This document shows positions 1-60,690 of a DNA stretch of 64,000 bases, piece by piece (the first letter of the stretch is position 1; each line of letters opens with the position of its first letter). The notes below the pieces were generated by a model, which was not told the origin of the DNA, did not search any database, and worked only from the letters and a program-made list of their open reading frames with translations. The DNA is taken from assembly GCF_010727605.1 (NCBI RefSeq), contig NZ_AP022568.1:2790001-2854000 (forward strand). Reading direction: 5' to 3'. Source of the stretch: Mycobacterium simiae (GTDB lineage: Bacteria; Actinomycetota; Actinomycetes; Mycobacteriales; Mycobacteriaceae). The translations under genes and the position numbers were made by a program.

Positions 1-2421
1 GAAGCTGCGGTCACCCGGGCGCTCCATCACCGGATCGGCCGAGACGTCGGCCGGAATACCGTTGGCGGTGAAGGCTTCCGACAAGCCGGCCCCCAAGGCA
101 TCGCGCACCGAACCGGTCACCGGCGCCAGCATCCCGGCGTTGGGTTCCTGTTCCACCATGACGTCCTCGGCCAGGCCGCACGACTTTCCGGCTAGGGCCT
201 CCAGATTGGACCGGCCGACCGACCACGCCGGGTATTGGCCCACCATCGCCAGCGTCAACGACGCCACCTCGAAGGTCACCAGCAGCCACGCCGTAATCGC
301 CAACGGCGACTGGATGATTCCGGTCATCCGCGGCCCGAGGCGGGTATTCCGAGGACCACCGGAGCCGCCGTCGGGAGCCGTGAAATGGAACCATGCCGAT
401 ACCAACAGCACCACGACCGTCAGCCCGAGCAGGACGGTGGCAAACGCATAGTGCCATGCCGGGAACGAATTCGACCACGGCACACCGAAATTGGAGACGT
501 ACCACCAGCCGTTGACACTGGCGAACGATAAGGCGGCCAAGAACAGCACGGCGGCAGCGAACACGGTGCGGTTGCGGCGCGAACGCATCGCAACACTGGT
601 CACCGCGACCGCGGCCAGTGCGCCCAGCGAACCGGCCAGCCCGGCGAACACCCCGAAGTGATGCGTCCACTTGGTTGGGGTGAACATCATCGCCAGGAAG
701 GAGATGATGGTGATTCCGACGATGCGACGGCTCGGGCCGGCCGCGGTGCCCGGGATTCGCCCCTTGCGCAACGACATCGCCACCGTGATACCGAGCGCAA
801 GCAGCACCGCCAGCACCGCGAAGCGCCGGGCAATGGATCCGTCGGGGCTGGCCATGAACAGCCGCTCGTAGCGGATGTGTTCGTCGAACCAGCTCAGGCT
901 GGGCCCGAGCGCACGCTTGAGCGCGGTCGCCTGCAGCTCGCCGGCCAACGTCTGGTCGCGGAAGATCAGGATCACCGTGACGGTGGCCGCGGCCAGGATC
1001 GGTGCCAGCAGCGGCAGCACCCCGAACTGCCGGGAGCGGCGGTGAATAATCGTGCGCAGCGGTCCAATCGCGACCAGCAGGGCGCCAATGGACGCGATGC
1101 CGGTCGGCCCGGAGAACAGGGTCAGCGCGCCGACGATGCACGCGATCGCGACCGGCAGCAGCCGGTTGGTGGCCACCGCCCGCTCGACCGAACACCAGGT
1201 GAGCAGGATGCCCAGCGCGATGATCGGTTCGGGGCGCAGCCCATTGTCGAGCGGCAGCCAGGTCGCCAGGAACAGCCCGGCGGCAGTCCATGCCGCCGCG
1301 CGGCTGATCTTCACGGCGTGACCCAGGCGCGGCATCACCTCGCGGCTGATGGCCCACCAACAGGTCAAGGCCATGGCCAAGGTGGGCAGCCGCATCCAGA
1401 CGCTGTTGGTGCTGACGTGCGCCCATAACGCGAGCAGGTCGTAATACCAGCCGAACGGCGCCTCGGGGGTGCCCAACCAGCGGTAGTAGTTCGCCATGTA
1501 GCCGGCATGCTCGGACACCCGCGCCATCGTCAGGATGTAACCGTCGTCGGAGGTGTTCGCCCCGACGAAATGCCACCACACCAGCACGCCGATGACGAGG
1601 GCGTCGAGGCCGCCGATCGACCACCACCGGGCGGGCAAGAAGCGGCGGTGCCGGGTGCCGTCGGCGGAGTCGAGGATGTGCAGGGCGATCAGGGCGACGG
1701 CCGTCAGCAGCACGCCGAGGATCATCGCGGCCATCTTCAGCGGCGTGGGGCTGCTGCTGTACCGGGTGTCGACGGTCGCCGAGAAGCTCAGGCCGGCGGG
1801 CGCCGGCCCGGACAGATCGGTGAACACGCCGACGATCTGCGGCCGGAAGTCGTACCCGCTCTTCTCGCCGCGCAGCGGCGCGCCGGGGTGTTCGGCGTTG
1901 GGCCCCTGCGTCAGCCCGACGAATTCGGCGGTGACCCTGTCGGCGTGCGCGGTGAACGTCAATCGCTGGCAGGCCGGGCTGAGCACCTCGTTCAACGGCG
2001 CGGTGACCACCGGGACGTTGCGCACCACCAGCACCAGTTCGTCGTTGGCGCGCAGGATCAGCAGTCCGCGGTCGACGGCCTTCGGCGCTTGCTTAGGCAC
2101 CGTCGACAGCAGCACCGTCTTGCCGGCGTTCTGCCGCCCGGTCAGACCGGCGGCTGCTTGACACGGCACGGAGATGGTCAGCTCCGGGGCCACATAGCCG
2201 ATCAGCGGCGCTTCGATGCTCTCGAAGGTGCCGTTCTGCGGCCAGTTGAGCTGGGCGGTGGTCTGGCTGACGGGCAGCACCGGCGTGAGAATCGCCAGCA
2301 GCGCTCCGAGCAGACCGGCCACGACGGCCACGACACGAGCAACCCGATAGCGTGCGCCCGCGCTCTTCACGGACCTAGATGGTAGTTCTTCGACCAAGTC
2401 GCGCGAGGTGTCGGTCGCCAT
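1..2421 (-). CDS. embC: Arabinosyltransferase EmbC, partial (3' end outside window)
   Basis: Membrane GT-C arabinosyltransferase that extends the arabinan of lipoarabinomannan from decaprenyl-phosphoryl-arabinose; the Emb proteins are ethambutol targets. The first 807 codons are present of a family length near 1,090. An N-terminal membrane segment follows a short cytoplasmic leader, then a large extracytoplasmic region, then many membrane segments. The GT-C acidic motif is visible as S-DD-GYI with the aspartates at about residues 292-293. The ATG shares one base with the stop of aftA (TGATG), so the genes are translationally coupled. Identity rests on remembered similarity to M. tuberculosis EmbC and on the order gtrA-dprE1-dprE2-aftA-emb. 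The reading frame is open to the window edge, and the C-terminal carbohydrate-binding domain is not in view. Confidence 0.95.
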   Translation of the reverse strand, partial: MATDTSRDLVEELPSRSVKSAGARYRVARVVAVVAGLLGALLAILTPVLPVSQTTAQLNWPQNGTFESIEAPLIGYVAPELTISVPCQAAAGLTGRQNAGKTVLLSTVPKQAPKAVDRGLLILRANDELVLVVRNVPVVTAPLNEVLSPACQRLTFTAHADRVTAEFVGLTQGPNAEHPGAPLRGEKSGYDFRPQIVGVFTDLSGPAPAGLSFSATVDTRYSSSPTPLKMAAMILGVLLTAVALIALHILDSADGTRHRRFLPARWWSIGGLDALVIGVLVWWHFVGANTSDDGYILTMARVSEHAGYMANYYRWLGTPEAPFGWYYDLLALWAHVSTNSVWMRLPTLAMALTCWWAISREVMPRLGHAVKISRAAAWTAAGLFLATWLPLDNGLRPEPIIALGILLTWCSVERAVATNRLLPVAIACIVGALTLFSGPTGIASIGALLVAIGPLRTIIHRRSRQFGVLPLLAPILAAATVTVILIFRDQTLAGELQATALKRALGPSLSWFDEHIRYERLFMASPDGSIARRFAVLAVLLALGITVAMSLRKGRIPGTAAGPSRRIVGITIISFLAMMFTPTKWTHHFGVFAGLAGSLGALAAVAVTSVAMRSRRNRTVFAAAVLFLAALSFASVNGWWYVSNFGVPWSNSFPAWHYAFATVLLGLTVVVLLVSAWFHFTAPDGGSGGPRNTRLGPRMTGIIQSPLAITAWLLVTFEVASLTLAMVGQYPAWSVGRSNLEALAGKSCGLAEDVMVEQEPNAGMLAPVTGSVRDALGAGLSEAFTANGIPADVSADPVMERPGDRSF

Positions 2422-4490
2422 CAGCGGGTTGTCGCCGGTTGGGCCGGCGGCTTGCGGATTGCCAGCACAAACGGGCCGATGCTTTGCACGGCAAACCGCG
2501 GGTCGTCGAAGAGCGCCGCCCGCAGCTCGACGCTGTAGCGGCGAACGTTGGGCTGATTGGGATAGACGTCCTCGGCCAGCCGCAGCGTGTAGTTGTTGTT
2601 TCCGCCGCGGCGCATCAGGAACACCGTCGGCGGGGGCCAGGGCGAGGTGTCCAGCGCGTGGATGAACTCGTCGGGGGACTTGAGGGTAGACCACTTCTTG
2701 ATCTGCGCCGCCCGGAGGTCGAACTGCGCCAGGGGGTTCGCGTAGTGCGACGTCAACCCCTGGAAGCCCCAGTACGGGTAGTAGGACAGGAAGCTGTAGT
2801 CGGCGGTGAGCACCACCGTCTGGTCTTGGGGTTTGCCGGTGACCTGGCGGATCGCGGCGTCGACGGCGGGGTAGAACTTCTCTGAGCTCGGCGGCCGTCG
2901 ATCCCCACGCTGCCCCAGACCATCGGTGTCGGTGTAGGCGATGGTCAGATCGGGCCGTAGCACGTCGGGGATGTCCTGGCTGAAGGCGATCGCGGCGGTC
3001 AGCCCGATCGCGCCGGCCACCGTTTTCAGAGCGGGGCTGCGGTGTCGCAGCGTGGCCCCGGAAAAGGTGACCTCGAGGAAACCGAACACCCCCGCGGCGA
3101 CCAGCAGCACCGACAGGGTCGGCTGCAGCCGGAACGACAGCAGCGTGGTGCGCGCCAGCGTGGTCAGCATCGACAGCAGGGACCACAGGTAGATGGCCAG
3201 CACCCCGACGGTCAGGGCGCCGGCGCGGACCGACGTGCGGGTGCGCATGATCAGCCACAGGGTGCCGATCAGGCAGATCGCGCCCAGCAGCGAGAACTGC
3301 AGCATCGGGAAGGTCAGCTCTGCACCGTCGGCCGGTAGGTAGTGAAAGGCGCTGCCGCTGTTACTGATTGGGCTGGTAGCCGCGCGCAGCAGGAACGGCA
3401 GCCAGGTGATGCTGGCGATCGCGGCCGCGATGACGGCGATGGCAGCGATCCGTCGCAGCGGGTCCAGTGCGGCCCGCCACCCCGCACGTCTGCAGCGTGA
3501 CACCACCAGCACCAGCGCCATCAGCGCCATCGTGAATGCGGTGTAGCCGAACAGCAGCGTGTACCAGGTGGCCGTGAAGCCCAGGAACAACCCGGCGCCC
3601 AGCACCGCGGCCCAGCCTCGGGCCCGTGGCTTGTCCGCAGCCACCGCTGACTCCTCCGCGGCGAGCTCCTCCGCCGCCACCGCCGACTCATCCGCCGCGA
3701 GCGTGAAGTTGGTTTCACTCTCGGGCTCGAGCGTGAAGTTAGCTTCACGTTCGACACTTGGGGTGGGCTCCAGCGCCCGGCTAGCCGGGCATTCCCGTTC
3801 GCCGGCGCGCAGACCCGACCAGGTCAGCACCAGCACCGGCGGCAACAGGACCGTGATCATCGCGGAGTACGGCTCCGGTGAGCTGTAGGCCAGCGTTACC
3901 GCCGCCGTCGCGGTCGTGACGATCAGGGCGTACTCGAAGCGGATCAGCCGCCACCACAGCACCAGCGCGACGGCCACCGCGATGGTGATCGAGGTGATCG
4001 CCCACGGTTTGAACATCTCCCAGGCGGGCGTCCCGGTCAGCGCGGCGGCGCGCCCGCCGATCCAGAACCAGCCCGGTGGATAAAAGGACGGCAGCCCGAG
4101 ATAGGTCATGTCGTGCAGGGCGGGGCTGTCGGCAAGCCGCGTCAGGTACTCAGTGCGGAACTGCTGATCGACCGAGATGCCGAACAAATAAAGCTTGGTC
4201 GCCCCCAGCGGCATGCCCAGTGTCACCACGCTGAACGCGGAGACGAACACCAGGCCACCCGTCTGAGCGGCCACCCGCCACCGGTCGGATCGCCGCCACA
4301 GCCAGCCGACGGCCACCAGCCCCAGCAGACAACCAACCTGGCCGACGGTAGTGAGGGCGTGCAGTTGATTCGACGACGGAAAGGCCGGCCACTGGACCCG
4401 CGCGATGGCGATCAGCGATACGACCGACACCACGGCGGCCACCGCGACCGCCACCATCATCTGGCCGAGAGTGGCCAGCGCGTTGCGCAT
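2421..4490 (-). CDS. aftA: Arabinofuranosyltransferase AftA
   Basis: Polytopic GT-C enzyme that puts the first arabinofuranose on the galactan of arabinogalactan, using decaprenyl-phosphoryl-arabinose. It predicts 689 aa against about 643 in M. tuberculosis. The excess is an acidic, alanine- and glutamate-rich stretch at about residues 231-290 with internal repeats (two NFTL boxes and two ESAVAA boxes), lying between membrane segments where the M. tuberculosis protein, as I remember it, has only a short loop. I chose the ATG at 4490 (MRNALATL), two bases after the dprE2 stop; the frame stays open further upstream, but that would overlap dprE2. The rest, including the C-terminal soluble domain, matches AftA closely. 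The insert coincides with two REP-like palindromes. Confidence 0.95.
3698..3753. repeat. Two REP-like palindromes inside aftA
   Basis: Two 26-bp imperfect palindromes, 3698-3723 and 3728-3753, have arms of the form CGAGCGTGAAG and CTTCACGNTCG around a 4-base loop. The second copy has one arm mismatch and the first has two. They start 30 bp apart (ten codons), so both are read in the same frame and encode the repeated ExNFTL boxes. They resemble intergenic palindromes of mycobacterial genomes, but that family link is from memory. Confidence 0.6.
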
Positions 4491-4492
4491 GA

Positions 4493-5257
4493 TCAGATGG
4501 GCAGCTTGCGGAAGATGGGCCGTGGAATGTGTCGCAACACCATCATCACGTACCTGAATGCAGCTGGCGCCCAAACCAATTCCTTACCTTTTGCGGCAGC
4601 GGTCACCGCGAGGTCGGCGACGTATTCCTTGTCGACGGTCAACGGCGCTTCCTTGACGTGCGCGCTCATCCGGGTACGCACCTGGCCCGGGCGGATCACC
4701 AGGACGCGCACCCCGTACTCGCGCAACGCCTCGCCCAATCCCAGGTAGAAGCCGTCCAGCCCGGCCTTGGTGGAGCCGTAGACGAAGTTGGAGCGCCGCA
4801 CTCGTTCGCCCGCCGCCGAACTCATCGCGATGATCTGGCCGAAACCCTGGGCGCGCATCTTCTCGCCGAGTAGGACACCCACCGAAACTGCTGCGGTGTA
4901 ATTGATCTCGGCGGCAAGCACAGCCTTGTGCTGGTTTTGCCACAGCTCCTCGGCGTCCCCGAGGATGCCGAACGCCACGATGGCCACGTCGACATCGCCG
5001 TTGGCAAAGGCTGCCTCAATCATCTTGGGGTGACTGTCCGGTGTGGTGGCCTCGAAGTCGATCAGCTCGACCGACCGCGCACCCGCGGCTTGCATCTGTG
5101 CCACGGCGGCCGCACGACCGGGGTCGTCGGGCATGGCGGCCAACACGATTCGGGCGCGGGCGTTCTGCAGATAACGCTCGCAGATTGCCAGGCCGATCTC
5201 CGAGGTGCCACCTAGCAGCAGGATCGTCTGGGGGTTCCCCACCGCGTCTAGCACCAT
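4493..5257 (-). CDS. dprE2: Decaprenylphosphoryl-2-keto-ribose reductase DprE2
   Basis: Short-chain dehydrogenase that reduces decaprenylphosphoryl-2-keto-erythro-pentose to decaprenylphosphoryl-arabinose, the second half of the DprE1/DprE2 epimerisation supplying all arabinosyltransferases. The 254 aa include the NAD(P)-binding GGTSEIG motif at about residues 16-22, and a catalytic YGSTK (Tyr and Lys) with upstream serines in MSSAAGE. The ATG directly abuts the dprE1 stop with no gap, and aftA begins two bases after its own stop, so dprE1-dprE2-aftA-embC is one tightly coupled transcription unit. The C-terminal hydrophobic stretch fits a membrane-associated lipid substrate. Confidence 0.96.
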
Positions 5258-6649
5258 TTAAAGCAGCTCCAAACGTCGGGCCATGTCGGAGGCGAAGACC
5301 CGCATCGGGTCAACTTTGCGGCGCACCGCGATCCATTCATCAATGCGCGGATACATGGCGTGGAAGGTTTCGGCGCTTACCCGCGAATCCTTGGCCGTGT
5401 AGACCCGACCACCGAATTCCAGTGCACGCCGGTCGAGTTCGTTCAGGAATTCGTTGATGCCTGGCTTGTTCGGAAAGTCCATCGCGACATTCCAACCGGC
5501 CATCGGGAAACTCAACGGGGCGCGATTGCCCGGTCCGAATAGCTTGAACACATTAAGCGCCGAATAATGGCCGGAAGTTTGGATCCAGCGAATGATGGCC
5601 TTGAATTCGTCCATCGCATCCGGTGGGACCAAGAATTGGTGCTGAGCGAAACCCCTTGGGCCATAGGCATTATTCCAACCGCTGACCAGGTCGAGCATGT
5701 GGTAGAACTGGGACAGATTCATGATCTTGCCGGTGTAGGTGCCGCCCAGCCGGTAATACACTTCGCCGATCGCCATGAACGACAGCTTGTTCATCGCGCT
5801 GACCGGGAAGACGTCCGGCACCGTCAACAACTGTGGCGCATCAAATTTCAGCGGATTCTTGGCCAGCTTCTTCGGCAGTTGATCCAGCGTGGCCAGGCTG
5901 CCCCGGCTCACGGCGGCCCGACCGAGTTTCGGCGGCGGGCTGATCAGGTCGAACCAGGCGCTGGAATAGGTGTAGTTGGCTTCGCTGCCGTCCAGATGCA
6001 CCGCGACGGTTTCGTCCAGGTCCTTGGTGGCCACGCCGTCGGCGATGAAGTACGCGGTCTCGGTCGGCGTCATCGCGATGGTGGCGCGCAGCACGATCCC
6101 GGTCAGCCCGTTGCCTCCGACGGTCGCCCAGAACAATTCGGCGTCTGCGGCGTCCGGGCCGTCCGGGGTGATGGTGCGGATGGTGCCGTCGGCCAGCAGC
6201 AGATCCATCGACCGCACGTGGTTGCCGAAGCTGCCCGCACTGTGATGGTTCTTACCGTGGATGTCGCAGGCGATGGCGCCGCCGACGGTGACCTGGCGGG
6301 TGCCCGGTAGCACCGGGACCCACAGCCCGAACGGGAGCGCCGCCTTCATCAACTGGTCCAGGCTGACGCCAGCGTCGACATCGACAAGCCGGGTGTCGGC
6401 GCTGATCGAGTGGATGCGATTCAGCACCGTCATGTCGATCACCAGGCCGCCGCCGTTTTGCGCGTTGTCCCCGTAGGAGCGACCCAGGCCGCGCGCGATG
6501 ACGCCTCTACCGCCGGAGTCAGCGACCCGGGCGACCGCCTTGGCGATCACTTCGGGATCGCGGGTCGACAGCACCTGGGCCACCGACGGTGCGGTGCGGC
6601 CAAAGCCCATCAGCCGGGTGGGCCTGGTCGGAAAGTCGGCGCTCAACAT
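5258..6649 (-). CDS. dprE1: Decaprenylphosphoryl-beta-D-ribose oxidase DprE1, Ala at the benzothiazinone cysteine
   Basis: FAD-dependent oxidase of decaprenylphosphoryl-ribose, first step of epimerisation to the arabinose donor; a major drug target. The protein has 463 aa (461 in M. tuberculosis). The FAD-binding vanillyl-alcohol-oxidase-type fold is seen in [13 protein letters not shown] and [20 protein letters not shown], and the C-terminus ends RRLELL as in M. tuberculosis. The start ATG at 6649 is chosen from the matching N-terminus ([18 protein letters not shown]); the frame remains open far upstream through the repeat array and the gtrA region, but that extension is not protein-like. 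Residue 389 (codon 5483-5485, GCG) is alanine in GWNVAMDFP, where M. tuberculosis has Cys387, the residue alkylated by benzothiazinones. Confidence 0.97.
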
Positions 6650-6670
6650 CGTCAAAGAGGCTACCGCCTG

Positions 6671-6948
6671 GCCGACCGACGATGCGGGACGTGTGCGTCC
6701 GGTTGAGGAGGAGGCCGATTGGGCCGATGCCGACCGACGATGCGGGACGCGTGCGTCCCGTTGAGGAGGAGGCCGATTGGGCCGATGCCGACCGACGATG
6801 CGGGACGCGTGCGTCCCGTTGAGGAGGAGGCCGATTGGGCCGATGCCGACCGACGATGCGGGACGTGTGCGTCCGGTTGAGGAGGAGGCCGATTGGGCCG
6901 ATGCCGACCGACGATGCGGGACGTGTGCGTCCGGTTGAGGAGGAGGCG
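6671..6948. repeat. 58-bp MIRU-like tandem repeat array
   Basis: Units start at 6671, 6729, 6787, 6845 and 6903, each exactly 58 bp apart; the fifth is cut after about 46 bp, at the gtrA stop. Copies 1, 4 and 5 carry GGACGTGTGCGTCCGG, while copies 2 and 3 carry GGGACGCGTGCGTCCC, which lengthens the internal hairpin. On the gene strand each unit reads CCTCCTCCTCA ... GCATCGTCGG, the layout I remember for mycobacterial interspersed repetitive units. The array fills almost all of the 299-bp gtrA-dprE1 spacer. No unique spacers exist, so it is not a CRISPR array. Confidence 0.9.
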
Positions 6949-7371
6949 TTAGTGGATCCGGAAGATGACGAGCCGCTGCACGACGAAGTTGATCACCGTC
7001 GCGGTGCCCTGCGCGATCACGAACGCGACGATGGGTGCCCAGCCGCGATAGTGCAGCAGCACCAAACACAGGTGGTTGAGCCCGACCTGGACCGCGAAGG
7101 TGAGGCCGTAGAGCACCATGACCGCGACAAACCGGGCCGTGCTGGGCTCGGCCTGGAAGGTCCATCGGCGGTTGATCAGGTAGGCGGTGACGGTGCCGAC
7201 GACGAAACTGGTCGCCTTGGACACGTCGACCTGGACGCCCAGCACCTTCCAGAGCACCATGTAGAGGCCGAAATCGACGATGGCGGCCAGCCCGCCGGTC
7301 ACCACGAAACGGGTGATCTGCGTGGTCAGGCTCAGGCGCACCGGCGCGGTTCCGGACTCGGGGGGCGGCAT
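6949..7371 (-). CDS. GtrA-family membrane protein (Rv3789-type)
   Basis: Small polytopic protein of 140 aa with about four hydrophobic segments (around residues 20-40, 50-70, 80-105 and 110-135) and the GtrA-family signature F-x-x-x-G spaced before D-x-x-x-Y, followed by NRRWTF. GtrA proteins are tied to polyprenyl-linked sugar transfer. The M. tuberculosis orthologue was first proposed as a decaprenyl-phosphoryl-arabinose flippase and later as an anchor recruiting AftA. It lies first in the dprE1-dprE2-aftA-embC series, separated from dprE1 only by the 58-bp repeat array. The ATG at 7371 precedes [10 protein letters not shown]. Confidence 0.9.
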
Positions 7372-7414
7372 TGGGGGAGTTTATCGGGGGCGTGCGCATT
7401 CCCCGGGGCAGCAG

Positions 7415-46042: not shown

Positions 46043-46129
46043 GGTGGCGTGTCCGAGCGGCCTAAGGAGCACGCCTCGAAAGCGTGTGACGGCTAAAACC
46101 GTCCGAGGGTTCAAATCCCTCCGCCACCG
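46043..46129 (+). tRNA. tRNA-Ser (anticodon CGA)
   Basis: Class II tRNA: acceptor GGTGGCG/CGCCACC, anticodon stem CACGC/GCGTG with loop CTCGAAA (anticodon CGA), long variable arm GACGGCTAAAACCGTC, T-arm GAGGGTTCAAATCCCTC. No encoded CCA. It is very similar in its arms to the tRNA-Ser(TGA) at 17349. Confidence 0.95.
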
Positions 46130-46148
46130 CCAAAACTTGCGCGTTGCG

Positions 46149-55429: not shown

Positions 55430-56752
55430 TCAGGGCACTGCTGTCGCGTACAACCACTGGTCCCACAGCGGGCGTAGCGATTCGTCCGAGTAGTTCGCCG
55501 CCAGGCCGGTGAAGTCGTCGGTGACGGCGGTGCCGTGGCGGTGCCGCGTGGTCCAATCCTTCAGTAACGCAACGAAGTTGTCGCTGCCGAGCCGGTTGCG
55601 CAGTGCGTGCAGGGTCAGGGCGCCGCGCTTGTAGACCCGATCGTCGAACATATCCCGGGCTCCGGGGTCGGTCAGCAACAGGTCCTGGGGCTGGGTGCGC
55701 AACTGTGCGTGGTGCCACTCGGCGAGTTCGTGGGCGCTGGGTCCGCCGCTGTGCTCCGACCACAGCCACTCCGCGTAGCAGGCGAACCCTTCGTGCAGCC
55801 AGATGTCGCGCCATTGTCCGGCGGTCACCGAGTTGCCGAACCACTGGTGCGCCAGTTCGTGGGCGATCAGCCGCTCGCTGGCCCGAGTGCCGTCGCAATG
55901 ATTTGCGCCGAAGATTGAAATACCTTGCGCTTCAACGGGTATCTCCAGCGCGTCGTCGGTGACGACGACCGTGTAGCCGCTGCCCAGCGGATACGGGCCA
56001 AACAGGTCGATGAACAACCGCATCATCTCCGGCTGACGGGCGAAGTCGTGGTCGAAGTTTTCCCGCAGGCGGGCGGGCAGCGCGGCGTCGATCGGCACCG
56101 GGGTACGCGCCAGCCGGTGCACGTCGTAGCTGCCGATTTGCAACGTGATCAGGTAGGTCGACGTGGGCTCGCGCTGTTCGTAGGTCCACACGGTTCGCGA
56201 CGAGCGGGCCCGCCGGGATAGTAGTTGCCCGTTGGCGATGACCCGATACCGACTTTCGGTGCTGACCTGGATGTTAAACGCGGCTTTGGCGCTGGGATGG
56301 TCGTTGCAGGGAAACCAGGACGCGGCGCCGTTGGGCTGTCCGGCCACCAGTGCGCCCTCCGTCAGCTCCTCGAAACCGACGTTGCCCCACAGGGACCGGA
56401 TCGGACGAGGTGAACCGCCGTAGCGCACCACGATCGACAGGGCGGCGCCGATGGGCACCGTCGAATCAAGGCGGATACGCAATTTCGCTGCCCGGCAGGA
56501 GAAGTGGTCGATCCGTCTGCCGTTCACCGACACCTTGGACACCGTCAACGCGTTGGACAGGTCGAGGGTAAGCTGCTGCAGTTCGGTCAGCGCGACGGCG
56601 GTAATCGTGGCTACCCCGGACAGCCGGTTCACGGCGACCCGGTAGTCCAGGTCAAGCTCGTAGCGTGACACCTGGTAACCGGAGTTGCCGTTCTTCGGCA
56701 GGTACTCGTCGAGCACCTCGGGCGGCGCCGCCTTCTTGGCCGAGGCCTTCAC
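55430..56752 (-). CDS. M1-family zinc aminopeptidase, coupled to the Pls-type synthetase
   Basis: 440-aa short-form M1 peptidase. The zinc site HELAH (residues 298-302) is followed by the third ligand Glu321 in LHEGFA, exactly HEXXH-X18-E. The exopeptidase GAMEN motif is replaced by PVEAQG (272-277), which keeps the glutamate but not the asparagine. The N-terminal beta domain covers about residues 1-215; the large C-terminal helical domain of PepN is missing. No signal peptide. The GTG at 56752 overlaps the synthetase stop by four bases (GTGA), so the two are translationally coupled. It may trim or degrade the synthetase product or protect the cell from it. Confidence 0.85.
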   Translation of the reverse strand: MKASAKKAAPPEVLDEYLPKNGNSGYQVSRYELDLDYRVAVNRLSGVATITAVALTELQQLTLDLSNALTVSKVSVNGRRIDHFSCRAAKLRIRLDSTVPIGAALSIVVRYGGSPRPIRSLWGNVGFEELTEGALVAGQPNGAASWFPCNDHPSAKAAFNIQVSTESRYRVIANGQLLSRRARSSRTVWTYEQREPTSTYLITLQIGSYDVHRLARTPVPIDAALPARLRENFDHDFARQPEMMRLFIDLFGPYPLGSGYTVVVTDDALEIPVEAQGISIFGANHCDGTRASERLIAHELAHQWFGNSVTAGQWRDIWLHEGFACYAEWLWSEHSGGPSAHELAEWHHAQLRTQPQDLLLTDPGARDMFDDRVYKRGALTLHALRNRLGSDNFVALLKDWTTRHRHGTAVTDDFTGLAANYSDESLRPLWDQWLYATAVP

Positions 56753-59700
56753 GCCGCGGTGTCCTGCACGCCACCCCGGGCGGCGTTCTTGCGGGCCTTC
56801 TTGCGGCGAGGAGTCCATGGCTTGATCGGATTACCTTGCCAGCGCGTCGATCCCGGGACCTCGTCACCGCGCACGACGAGCGAGGCCGGTCCGACGGTCG
56901 CACCGGCGCCGATCCGGGCGGCCGGCAGCGCCACGCCGTGCGGGCCCAGCGTAGCGCCGGATTCGAGCACCACGGTGTCCATCCGCATGATGCGGTCGTG
57001 GAACAGGTGAGTCTGCACGACGCAGCCGCGGCCGATGGTGGCCCCCGTACCCAGGGTGACGAGGTCCGCCTCGGGGAGCCAATAGGTTTCACACCACACG
57101 CCGCGGCCGATGTGGGCCCCCAGGGCGCGTAACCACACGTTCAGCATCGGCGTTGCGCTGGCTGCCCGCGCGAACCACGGGGCGGCCACGGTTTCTACGA
57201 ACGTGTCGGCGACCTCGTTGCGCCATACGAACGACGACCACAGCGGGAATTCGCCGGCCCGGATCCGGCCGACGAGAAGCCACTTCGCGGCGACCGTGAT
57301 CACTCCGGCGATCACGCCCGCCGCCAGCATCACCAGCCCACCACCCAGTGCGGCCCACCAGATGCCGAATATCCTTGCCAGCGCCTGCAATCCGCCCAGC
57401 ACCGCAAGCCCGATCCCGGCGGACACGATCACCGGTACCAACCGCAGCGTTTCCACCAGCGCCCGCATCGTCTTAAGCCGTTGCGGCGGATCGTAGGTGG
57501 TCACCTCATCGGTATCGGCGGGGCGCCGGCGCAGCCGCATCGGCGGGCTGCCCAGCCAGGACGACCCACGCTTGGCTTTCGGCGGCGCCGCCGACAGCAC
57601 CGCGACCAATCCGTCGTCGGGGACCCGACGGCCCGGCTGGGTGATGCCGGAGTTGCCGAGGAACGCGCGCCGGCCGACCGTCGTCGGCGCCGCATGGATC
57701 CAGCCACCTCCGAGCTCGTAGGACGCGACCATGGTGTCGTCGGCCAAGAAGGCGCCGTCCTCGATCGTGGTGAACTTCGGCGTGGCCAACACGGTCGAAA
57801 TCTCGGTGCCCCGACCAACTTTGGCGCCTAAGAGCCGCAGCCACACTGGGGTCAGCAGGCTGGCGTATAGCGGGAATAGGTAGGTTCGCGCGGCATCCAT
57901 CAGCCGCTCGGTGGCCCATAGCTGCCACCCGGGGCGGCTGCGCACCGGGTGATAGCCCTCGCGCAGTCCAAGCGACAGCGTCCGCACCCCCAGCATCGTC
58001 AGCAAGGCGTAGACCAGCAGCGCGCTCAACGCCGCCAACGGCGTCCAGGCCAGTGCCGGAGCCACGGCTTGTGACAACCGGTGGGTATGCCGGACGCCGA
58101 ACCCGATGACCGCGATGCCGGACCCGATCGCCAGCAGCGGCAGGGCTGCTAACACCAGTGACGTCAGTCCGTACACGGCGGCCCAGGATGTGCCGCGCGG
58201 CGGCCGCTCATCCGGCCACGGATGGTTGACCCGCCCGGCCTTCACCGCGGGCGAACCCTTCCAGTACTGGCCGTTCTTGATCTTGTCCAGCACGCCCGCG
58301 CCCGGGGCCACATCGGCATTCTTGCCGACGACCGCGCCCGGCAGCAGCGTCGATCGTGCGCCGATCGTCGCGTCGTTGCCGATGGTGATCTCACCGAGGT
58401 GAAAGGCGTCCCCGTCGATCCAATGACCGCACAGGTCGACCTCGGGTTCGACCGCGCTGCGATGGCCCATGGTGAGCAGACCCGTCACGGGCGGCGGGGA
58501 ATGCAGATCGACTCCCTTGCCGATGCGGGCGCCGAGCGCGCGGGCGTAGTACACCAGCCACGGTGCACCCGACAGGTTGTGGGCCCCGGTGGCCTCGGCG
58601 AGCCGTTCGGCGAACCAGATCCGCAGATGCACCGACCCGCCGCGGCGGTAGGTGCCCGGCCGCAGCTTCCACAACAACAACCGCGCGCACAGCGCCGTGA
58701 TCGCCATCCGGCCCACCGGCGTGACGAAGACCGCGAACGCCGCCGCGATCAGCCACCAGTTCACCGCGACGGTCCAGGGCACCACGTGCAGTGCGCGGGC
58801 GACGTTGTTGCCCAATGCGAGCCACGTCAGCCAGGGCAGCGCCGACAACGTCGCCAGCGGCAGGGCCAGCGCGGCCTGCGCGAGTTGGGTCACCACCGGG
58901 GTCGGCCGCACCGCACGCTCGGCCACCGGCGGTGGCGGCTCGAGCTCGTCGAGAAATCCAGCGAGCGAGCCCAGCCGCGGATGGTCGTAGAGATCAGCGA
59001 CGGTCACCTCCGGGTACTGCCGGCGCAGCGCGGCGACGAGCTGCGCCGCGGTCAGCGATCCACCACCAAGCGCGAAGAAGTCGGCCTCCGGAGTGTCGAC
59101 TTGCCCGGTTTCGAAGGCCCCGAGCAAGTCCCGCCACAGCCCGGCGAGCCATCCGGCGGTGCCGCTCAAATCGGCCGAATCCTCGGATTGATCGACCGGC
59201 GGCGGCCAGGGCAGCGCGTCGCGGTCGACCTTGCCCGAGGTGCGGGTCGGCAGTTCCGGGACCCGTACCAGCCGCGGTACCAGGGCGGCCGGCAGTTGCG
59301 TGGCGAGCCGGACCCGCGCCTCGTGGAGATCGAACGACGGGTCGGGGCTCACGACGTAGCCGACCAGCAGCGGCGCGCCGGCTGTGGTGTGCCGCACCGC
59401 GGCGGCTCCGCCACTGACACCGGGCAGATGCACCAGGGCCGTGTCGATCTCACCCAATTCGATCCGTCGACCCCCGACCTTGACCTGGTCGTCGCTGCGG
59501 CCACAGAAATACAGCCCGTCGCGCTCCAGCCGAACCAAATCGCCACTGCGGTAAGCGCGCGACCATCCCAGCGACGGCATCGGCGCGTACTTCTCGGCGT
59601 CGCGATCCTTATCCAGGTATCGGGCCAGGCCGACACCCCCGATCACCAGCTCGCCGACATCGCCGTAGGCGACCGGCAGTGTGTCGGGGTCGACGACCGC

Positions 59701-60690
59701 CAGATCCCAGCCCGGCAGCGGCAGCCCGATGCTGATCGGCCCGCTGCCACCGAGCTTTGCCGCGCACGCGACCACGGTGGCCTCGGTCGGGCCGTAGGTG
59801 TTCCATACCTCCCGGCCGTCGACCGCAAGCCGCTCGACCAGCTCCGGGGGGCAGGCCTCACCGCCGAAGATCAACAGCCGCACGGCTTCCAGCGCCTCGC
59901 TGGGCCACAATGCCGCCAGTGCCGGCACGGTCGACACGACGGTCACGTCGCGAGTGACTAGCCAGGGACCCAGGTCCATCCCGCTGCGCACCAGCGAGCG
60001 CGGGGCGGGGACCAGGCACGCGCCGTGCCGCCACGCCAGCCACATTTCCTCACAGGAGGCGTCGAACGCCACCGAAAGCCCGGCGAGGACTCGATCTCCG
60101 GGACCAATGGGGTTGTCTTGCAGGAATATTCGTGCCTCTGCATCGACGAACGCCGCGGCGCTGCGGTGCGTGACGGCCACGCCCTTCGGTGTGCCGGTCG
60201 ACCCGGACGTGAAGATGATCCAGGCGTCGTCGCGCGCCAGAGGCGCGGTGGCCCGCCAGCCGCGTGACGAGCCGACACCGCGCAGCAGGCCCGCTTCGGT
60301 GATGACGCCCACGACGCCAGCCTCGCCGAACACCAACTCGGCGCGTTCGTCGGGGTCGTCGGCGTCGACCGGGACGTAAGCCGCGCCGGTGGCCAGCGTC
60401 GACAAGATCGCCACGTATAGGGCGTAGCTGCCTGACGGCATCCGGATGCCGATCCGGTCACCCCGGCCGATGCCGCGGGCGGCCAGCCATTCCACGCTCG
60501 CCTCGATGTCGCCGATCAGTTCGCTGTAGGTGAGCTGGACGGTGCCATCGTCGATGGCGGTGGCATCCGGGTAACGCGCCGCGGTCTCGTAAAGGATGTC
60601 GATCAGGGTGCGCGGGCTCGGCGCGGCGGCGGACAGCGTGTACTGCGCCGGCACTCGTGCGGGGATGGGAGGCCCAGGGGGTAAAGCCAC
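56749..60690 (-). CDS. Pls/PosA-type membrane nonribosomal peptide synthetase (poly-amino-acid synthetase family)
   Basis: About 1,313 aa with the full architecture of Streptomyces epsilon-poly-L-lysine synthetase: an adenylation domain (residues about 20-500; TSGSTGTPKG 161-170, NTYGPTEAT, RSGDL, TSGKVDR with Lys487), a carrier domain (DFFALGGGSL, phosphopantetheine Ser545), then six membrane helices in three pairs alternating with three acyltransferase-like (hexapeptide-repeat) C-domains. No condensation or thioesterase domain exists. The hand-read specificity code is D-A-E-T-I-G-T-V-V-K, close to lysine codes. I choose the GTG at 60690; frame is open to 60933, but that part reads as low-complexity and overlaps gntR. 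The product is predicted to be a short isopeptide-linked basic homopolymer, unknown in mycobacteria to my knowledge. Confidence 0.88.
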   Translation of the reverse strand: MALPPGPPIPARVPAQYTLSAAAPSPRTLIDILYETAARYPDATAIDDGTVQLTYSELIGDIEASVEWLAARGIGRGDRIGIRMPSGSYALYVAILSTLATGAAYVPVDADDPDERAELVFGEAGVVGVITEAGLLRGVGSSRGWRATAPLARDDAWIIFTSGSTGTPKGVAVTHRSAAAFVDAEARIFLQDNPIGPGDRVLAGLSVAFDASCEEMWLAWRHGACLVPAPRSLVRSGMDLGPWLVTRDVTVVSTVPALAALWPSEALEAVRLLIFGGEACPPELVERLAVDGREVWNTYGPTEATVVACAAKLGGSGPISIGLPLPGWDLAVVDPDTLPVAYGDVGELVIGGVGLARYLDKDRDAEKYAPMPSLGWSRAYRSGDLVRLERDGLYFCGRSDDQVKVGGRRIELGEIDTALVHLPGVSGGAAAVRHTTAGAPLLVGYVVSPDPSFDLHEARVRLATQLPAALVPRLVRVPELPTRTSGKVDRDALPWPPPVDQSEDSADLSGTAGWLAGLWRDLLGAFETGQVDTPEADFFALGGGSLTAAQLVAALRRQYPEVTVADLYDHPRLGSLAGFLDELEPPPPVAERAVRPTPVVTQLAQAALALPLATLSALPWLTWLALGNNVARALHVVPWTVAVNWWLIAAAFAVFVTPVGRMAITALCARLLLWKLRPGTYRRGGSVHLRIWFAERLAEATGAHNLSGAPWLVYYARALGARIGKGVDLHSPPPVTGLLTMGHRSAVEPEVDLCGHWIDGDAFHLGEITIGNDATIGARSTLLPGAVVGKNADVAPGAGVLDKIKNGQYWKGSPAVKAGRVNHPWPDERPPRGTSWAAVYGLTSLVLAALPLLAIGSGIAVIGFGVRHTHRLSQAVAPALAWTPLAALSALLVYALLTMLGVRTLSLGLREGYHPVRSRPGWQLWATERLMDAARTYLFPLYASLLTPVWLRLLGAKVGRGTEISTVLATPKFTTIEDGAFLADDTMVASYELGGGWIHAAPTTVGRRAFLGNSGITQPGRRVPDDGLVAVLSAAPPKAKRGSSWLGSPPMRLRRRPADTDEVTTYDPPQRLKTMRALVETLRLVPVIVSAGIGLAVLGGLQALARIFGIWWAALGGGLVMLAAGVIAGVITVAAKWLLVGRIRAGEFPLWSSFVWRNEVADTFVETVAAPWFARAASATPMLNVWLRALGAHIGRGVWCETYWLPEADLVTLGTGATIGRGCVVQTHLFHDRIMRMDTVVLESGATLGPHGVALPAARIGAGATVGPASLVVRGDEVPGSTRWQGNPIKPWTPRRKKARKNAARGGVQDTAA

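Follow-up and report, generated by a model that had tools for sequence, protein, structure and literature searches.

A Pls-type synthetase gene in Mycobacterium simiae

What would a mycobacterium produce with a synthetase in which adenylation and carrier domains are followed by membrane helices? This question is raised by the gene pls in a 64,000-nucleotide stretch of the Mycobacterium simiae genome (contig NZ_AP022568.1, positions 2,790,001 to 2,854,000 of the forward strand), hereafter referred to as the window. Epsilon-poly-L-lysine, a product of such enzymes, has been described chiefly as a secondary metabolite of Streptomyces. Our comparisons of sequences and models indicate that pls and the peptidase gene overlapping its 3' end (Table 1) very probably constitute a two-gene epsilon-poly-L-lysine operon, pls-pldII.

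A preliminary description of this DNA had proposed at this position a Pls-type synthetase that makes a homopolymer of a basic amino acid, without stating the strand. The open reading frame is indeed real and lies on the minus strand, the opposite frame being interrupted by stops. Its closest protein, an M. simiae homologue (P0001), is 98% identical and of equal length (1313 residues). Domain searches, for which a longer frame of 1394 residues was used, retrieved the TIGR02353 Pls/PosA terminal domain with 746.7 bits against a family cut-off of 423.1, together with the Pfam families AMP-binding (200.6 bits), PP-binding (49.6 bits), and Hexapep (40.4 bits). As anticipated, neither a condensation nor a thioesterase domain was among the Pfam matches. 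The best match of the adenylation (A) domain was to the solved A domain of the Streptomyces albulus polylysine synthase (7WEW), with 312 of 483 aligned residues (65%) identical and an E value of 2.1e-187, which excludes chance resemblance. The A domain retains the adenylation core motifs, and the carrier serine region is intact, S545 being kept in all 201 aligned rows.

Hydropathy delineated three pairs of hydrophobic helices downstream of the carrier domain, with which the long helices of an AlphaFold2 model coincide (predicted local distance difference test 81.3; predicted template modeling score 0.86). Units C1 and C3 match hexapeptide acetyltransferases; C2 is less clear, its sequence comparison with hexapeptide proteins having given no clear match. 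The terminal domain is thus modeled as six membrane helices in three pairs that alternate with three acyltransferase-like units, the layout that the preliminary description had read from the letters. The NCBI name of the protein already places it in the Pls/PosA family; it is a further case of a known, widespread system and not a new kind of system. Two homologues, from M. basiliense and M. marinum (P0062 and P0065), bear the name Plipastatin synthase subunit, apparently because Pls was misannotated.

Table 1. Coordinates of pls, its predicted domains, and the coupled peptidase gene in the window, and of the divergent pls of genome G177
Feature	Position	Strand	Remarks
pldII-like M1 metallopeptidase gene	55430..56752	-	440 aa; GTG start overlaps pls stop as GTGA
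pls, putative Pls/PosA-type epsilon-poly-L-lysine synthetase gene	56749..60690	-	1313 aa; GTG start at 60690, stop at 56749
Adenylation domain	59191..60663	-	about residues 10-500
Substrate pocket (D210, A211, E214, S253, I274, G276, T298, V306, V307)	59770..60063	-	K487 at 59230-59232
Carrier (PCP/thiolation) domain	58951..59151	-	phosphopantetheine Ser545 in LGGGSL
Pls/PosA terminal (polymerization) domain, TIGR02353	56824..58881	-	about residues 604-1289
Membrane helix pair 1	58672..58875	-	about residues 606-673
C1, left-handed beta-helix (hexapeptide) unit	58189..58671	-	
Membrane helix pair 2	57964..58188	-	about residues 835-909
C2, middle unit	57463..57963	-	short beta strands in AlphaFold2 model
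Membrane helix pair 3	57259..57462	-	about residues 1077-1144
Stretch after membrane helix pair 3	56821..57258	-	
pls of genome G177	L115 1480-5385	+	open frame, 1301 aa, 64% identical

The adenylation pocket and its probable substrate

The substrate pocket was read from an alignment of 202 rows comprising the window Pls, 120 proteins, 80 loci from relatives, and 7WEW. The alignment yielded the ten-residue code DAESIGTVVK, which is identical to that of S. albulus Pls at 10/10 positions and present in 199 of the 202 rows, the remaining three being incomplete. The assignment made by hand in the preliminary description was right for D210, A211, E214, I274, G276, T298, V306, V307, and K487; position 4, however, is S253 and not T254, because S253 pairs with S256 of 7WEW, a named lysine contact (PMC11253843). 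All five lysine contacts listed for 7WEW in this review (D213, K495, E217, T301, and S256) have identical counterparts in Pls (D210, K487, E214, T298, and S253, respectively). In its corrected form, the code therefore bears out the lysine-like specificity proposed earlier.

A Pls-type synthetase that polymerizes another basic amino acid, that is, ornithine, 2,4-diaminobutyrate, 2,3-diaminopropionate, or beta-lysine, would share part of this signature. All cationic homopolymer synthetases are said to conserve the acidic residue equivalent to E214, and adenylation domains accept neighboring substrates; PosA, the delta-poly-L-ornithine synthetase of Acinetobacter baumannii, also binds lysine (PMC10522769). 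PosA belongs to the same family, has a similar modeled terminal domain, and conserves the pocket aspartate and glutamate, both of which proved essential in PosA mutants (PMC10522769). Nonetheless, the PosA code (DMEHNGTVSK) and that of poly-beta-lysine each have 6/10 positions in common with the window enzyme, as opposed to 10/10 for S. albulus Pls. Position 2 of the code is reported to act as a length gate, with Ala for lysine, Met for ornithine, and Phe for the two shorter diamino acids (PMC10522769). In the window Pls this position is Ala211, rather than Met, Phe, or the Gly of the beta-lysine code. Gene order points in the same direction: a peptidase gene following the synthetase gene was reported for lysine synthetases and not for the other three compared (PMC8117764), and no obvious co-transcribed neighbors of posA are reported (PMC10522769). 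On the basis of the pocket code, we reject ornithine, diaminobutyrate, diaminopropionate, and beta-lysine as first-choice substrates, and we consider a synthetase dedicated to any of them very improbable. Lysine is much the best guess for the substrate of Pls, favored over ornithine or diaminobutyrate, because the code matches at every position and the coupled peptidase gene fits the known pls-pldII arrangement.

A coupled M1 peptidase gene

The preliminary description missed the second gene of the locus, which encodes an M1 metallopeptidase. The protein matches PF01433 with 94.7 bits and displays an HEXXH-X18-E zinc site (H298, E299, H302, and E321) that is invariant in the aligned set. GXMEN, which we take to be the aminopeptidase motif and would presumably precede this site, was not found in the peptidase; the stretch before the zinc site reads PVEAQGISIF, and all six of the most frequent variants of this segment (55/80 rows) contain EAQG. 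In S. albulus, pldII encodes the major epsilon-polylysine-degrading enzyme and is translationally coupled to pls (PMC9223678). The two systems are alike in the downstream, coupled position of the peptidase gene, as well as in the domain order, pocket code, five lysine contacts, and six-helix terminal domain of the synthetase.

We then looked at relatives retrieved by scanning genome contigs, of which the best 80 of at least 595 were kept as loci. In 79 of them, including those from Nocardia, pls is followed downstream by the peptidase gene in the same orientation, and the locus that misses it (L024) stops at a contig edge. An M1 peptidase gene also follows pls in all 29 loci of a further set (L085-L113), which possibly overlaps the first 80. 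Mechanical assignment of the junction in the 79 loci gave a 4-base overlap in 45 (L048 and L058 among these relying on a match past the first stop), a 1-base overlap in 14, and a gap of 3 to 2106 bases in 7, while 13 could not be assigned. In four loci from Tsukamurella and Williamsia (L033, L039, L041, and L042), the peptidase gene is placed ~0.3 to 2.1 kb 3' of pls, which leaves space for an extra gene. Another locus (L030) comes from a contig titled as a Bifidobacterium breve metagenome-assembled genome; its pls-pldII pair is mycobacterial and groups with mycobacteria in the pls tree, which denotes a mislabeled or contaminated bin.

This association might reflect merely inherited gene order, the M1 gene encoding an ordinary aminopeptidase, an explanation to which a pls tree that largely tracks taxonomy lends some credit. 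Seven other neighbor genes of the window, however, were each found in 0-6 of the 80 loci, compared with 79 for the peptidase gene, in counts that cover 6-kb flanks and could miss farther neighbors. The upstream GntR gene and two flanking monooxygenase genes were also considered as parts of the system and rejected, with occurrences in only 4, 4, and 6 loci, respectively.

Distribution and chromosomal position of the pair

Among 296 Mycobacterium genomes, 222 contained pls and 221 the peptidase gene, each at E < 1e-100. Both genes occurred together in 221 genomes, pls alone in one, the peptidase gene alone in none, and neither in 74. This near-perfect co-occurrence (295/296 genomes concordant) weighs against mere inheritance of gene order. 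The pair thus occurs in some three quarters of the Mycobacterium species sampled, and pls is not special to M. simiae, 221 genomes passing the TIGR02353-family cut-off in the tool tally. The scan scored the best three first-look candidates per genome, in genomes of unstated completeness, and some of the 74 pls-negative genomes could therefore be misses; these genomes contain only distant M1 relatives (best E values from 5.6e-36 to 6.4e-19). One of the 222 pls genes is broken in frame (G044), two span contig ends (G171 and G198), and two have short open frames (G222 and G122).

The sole genome with pls and without the peptidase gene, G177, encodes a strongly divergent synthetase. Its code, DAASLGTVVV, has lost the pocket glutamate and the A10 lysine, motifs A3 and A5 are altered, and 76 of 349 otherwise invariant sites are changed, whereas leave-one-out controls gave at most 20 of 369 (median, 1). 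This gene resembles a synthetase that has decayed or acquired another use and can now do without the peptidase; since its frame has stayed open, it may be a repurposed pseudo-enzyme. G177 is a single case, and its position in the tree is unsure on account of its long branch. A degenerate synthetase in a genome devoid of the peptidase gene amounts to a natural experiment tying pls and the peptidase together.

In the pls tree, built by a quick method with support from the Shimodaira-Hasegawa-like approximate likelihood ratio test only and with G177 and L074 on long branches, the mycobacterial rows form one group (starred), in which the window Pls sits beside M. simiae. A recent horizontal gain of pls in the window, which we also considered, is contradicted by this placement. 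The pair adjoins a flippase-like gene in many loci from Mycolicibacterium and in some others, and an inorganic pyrophosphatase gene lies close by, both genes being named from their translations; within the fetched flanks, the flippase gene was found in 29 and the pyrophosphatase gene in 19 of the 80 loci. We examined 40 of the 74 pls-negative genomes and found both markers on one contig in 37, with a spacing of less than 5 kb (1.2-3.2 kb) in 32 of these, so that the 5.3-kb pls-pldII pair cannot fit between them. This spacing suggests clean loss of the pair in several lineages. Ten pls-positive genomes were also compared (G001, G002, and the eight with the best peptidase matches): in nine, the two markers share a contig and lie within 3.2 kb of each other, pls-pldII being elsewhere. 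The pair occupies two different chromosomal places within mycobacteria and appears to have moved together, probably through one move as a unit in the lineage of the window. Along with the concordance across genomes, such joint movement renders an ordinary aminopeptidase next to pls by inheritance very improbable.

As for other features of the window, positions 2421-4574 (minus strand) encode the arabinofuranosyltransferase AftA (PF12250/PF12249) and positions 5258-7399 (minus strand) an FAD-binding oxidoreductase, possibly DprE1; this arabinan region is ~50 kb away from pls. A tRNA-Ser (CGA) at 46043-46132 (plus strand) is an ARAGORN match that does not reach the Rfam gathering threshold.

Proposed function of pls-pldII

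In the mechanism that we propose, the adenylation domain would activate L-lysine with ATP and load it onto the carrier serine. The membrane-embedded terminal domain, with six helices topped by beta-helix units, would then link the lysyl units via epsilon-amino isopeptide bonds, polymerization requiring neither condensation nor thioesterase domains, and the chain would exit at the membrane or by crossing it. The M1 zinc peptidase encoded by the coupled gene would cleave this polymer in the manner of Streptomyces PldII, and its activity may limit chain length, recycle lysine, or protect the producer. The latter is in line with a repression study that describes S. albulus PldII as self-protective (PMC9223678).

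Synthetases of the same architecture are found in other genera. A Nocardia homologue annotated as Pls is 55% identical to the S. albulus enzyme (PMC4035055). Corynebacterium variabile carries a pls-peptidase operon, its relatives share the pocket, and expression of its pls in Streptomyces coelicolor yielded epsilon-polylysine of 26-35 residues (PMC8117764). That this related Pls polymerizes lysine in S. coelicolor increases our confidence in the pls-pldII reading of the window. Overall, the case for lysine and for this function is stronger than the preliminary description stated, and the present comparisons agree with its proposal of a Pls-type synthetase acting on a basic amino acid.

Several points nonetheless weigh against this reading. 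The product and activity of the window pls-pldII are predicted from sequence, and the genomes surveyed share ancestry, so that the co-occurrence counts overstate the number of independent events. Cultures of C. variabile itself yielded no epsilon-polylysine in the hands of the authors (PMC8117764), and a mycobacterial copy may therefore be silent. The window enzymes also differ from those of S. albulus: the A domain is 65% identical, the host is a mycobacterium, and the peptidase shows no obvious hydrophobic export segment, its most hydrophobic 19 residues averaging just 1.28 by hydropathy only; PldII of S. albulus, by contrast, is reported to lie outside the membrane (PMC9223678). Position and family make the window peptidase a candidate counterpart of PldII. 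Finally, the protective role of PldII is disputed, because a review states that inactivation of both degrading enzymes in Streptomyces left yield and chain length unchanged (PMC8506220).

Some of these points could also be explained if Pls activated lysine and transferred it to a lipid, peptidoglycan, or protein acceptor of the envelope, or made very short oligomers, with no free polymer accumulating. The lack of polymer in C. variabile, which has the same pair, would be expected in that case; our literature searches, mostly of titles and abstract openings and without individual reading of papers that name both NAPAA clusters and mycobacteria, found no report of epsilon-polylysine or of a Pls from a mycobacterium, and the terminal domain resembles small-acceptor acetyltransferases. 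It belongs, however, to the same family as enzymes shown to polymerize, the C. variabile enzyme did polymerize in another host (PMC8117764), and there would be little reason for a peptidase that cuts polymers to be coupled to pls. We therefore deem transfer to an acceptor highly unlikely and retain the epsilon-poly-L-lysine operon as the preferred interpretation of the locus.

Implications for mycobacteria

Should Pls function as its sequence indicates, the capacity to produce a cationic antimicrobial polymer would extend to some three quarters of the Mycobacterium species sampled. M. tuberculosis appears, with a value of 32, in a published table of the activity of epsilon-polylysine (PMC8506220). 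We tentatively raise the possibility, with the balance of probability somewhat against it, that mycobacteria and their order inherited epsilon-poly-L-lysine from an ancestor and have for the most part kept it, as a cationic polymer located at the envelope or beyond it, served by a dedicated peptidase and repeatedly lost in individual lineages. A working enzyme would prompt questions about polycations in an envelope that is usually described in terms of lipids and arabinan, and about the reasons for which some lineages lost the pair. If true, an ancestral polymer of this kind would add a hitherto undescribed component to the surface chemistry of mycobacteria or to their competition.

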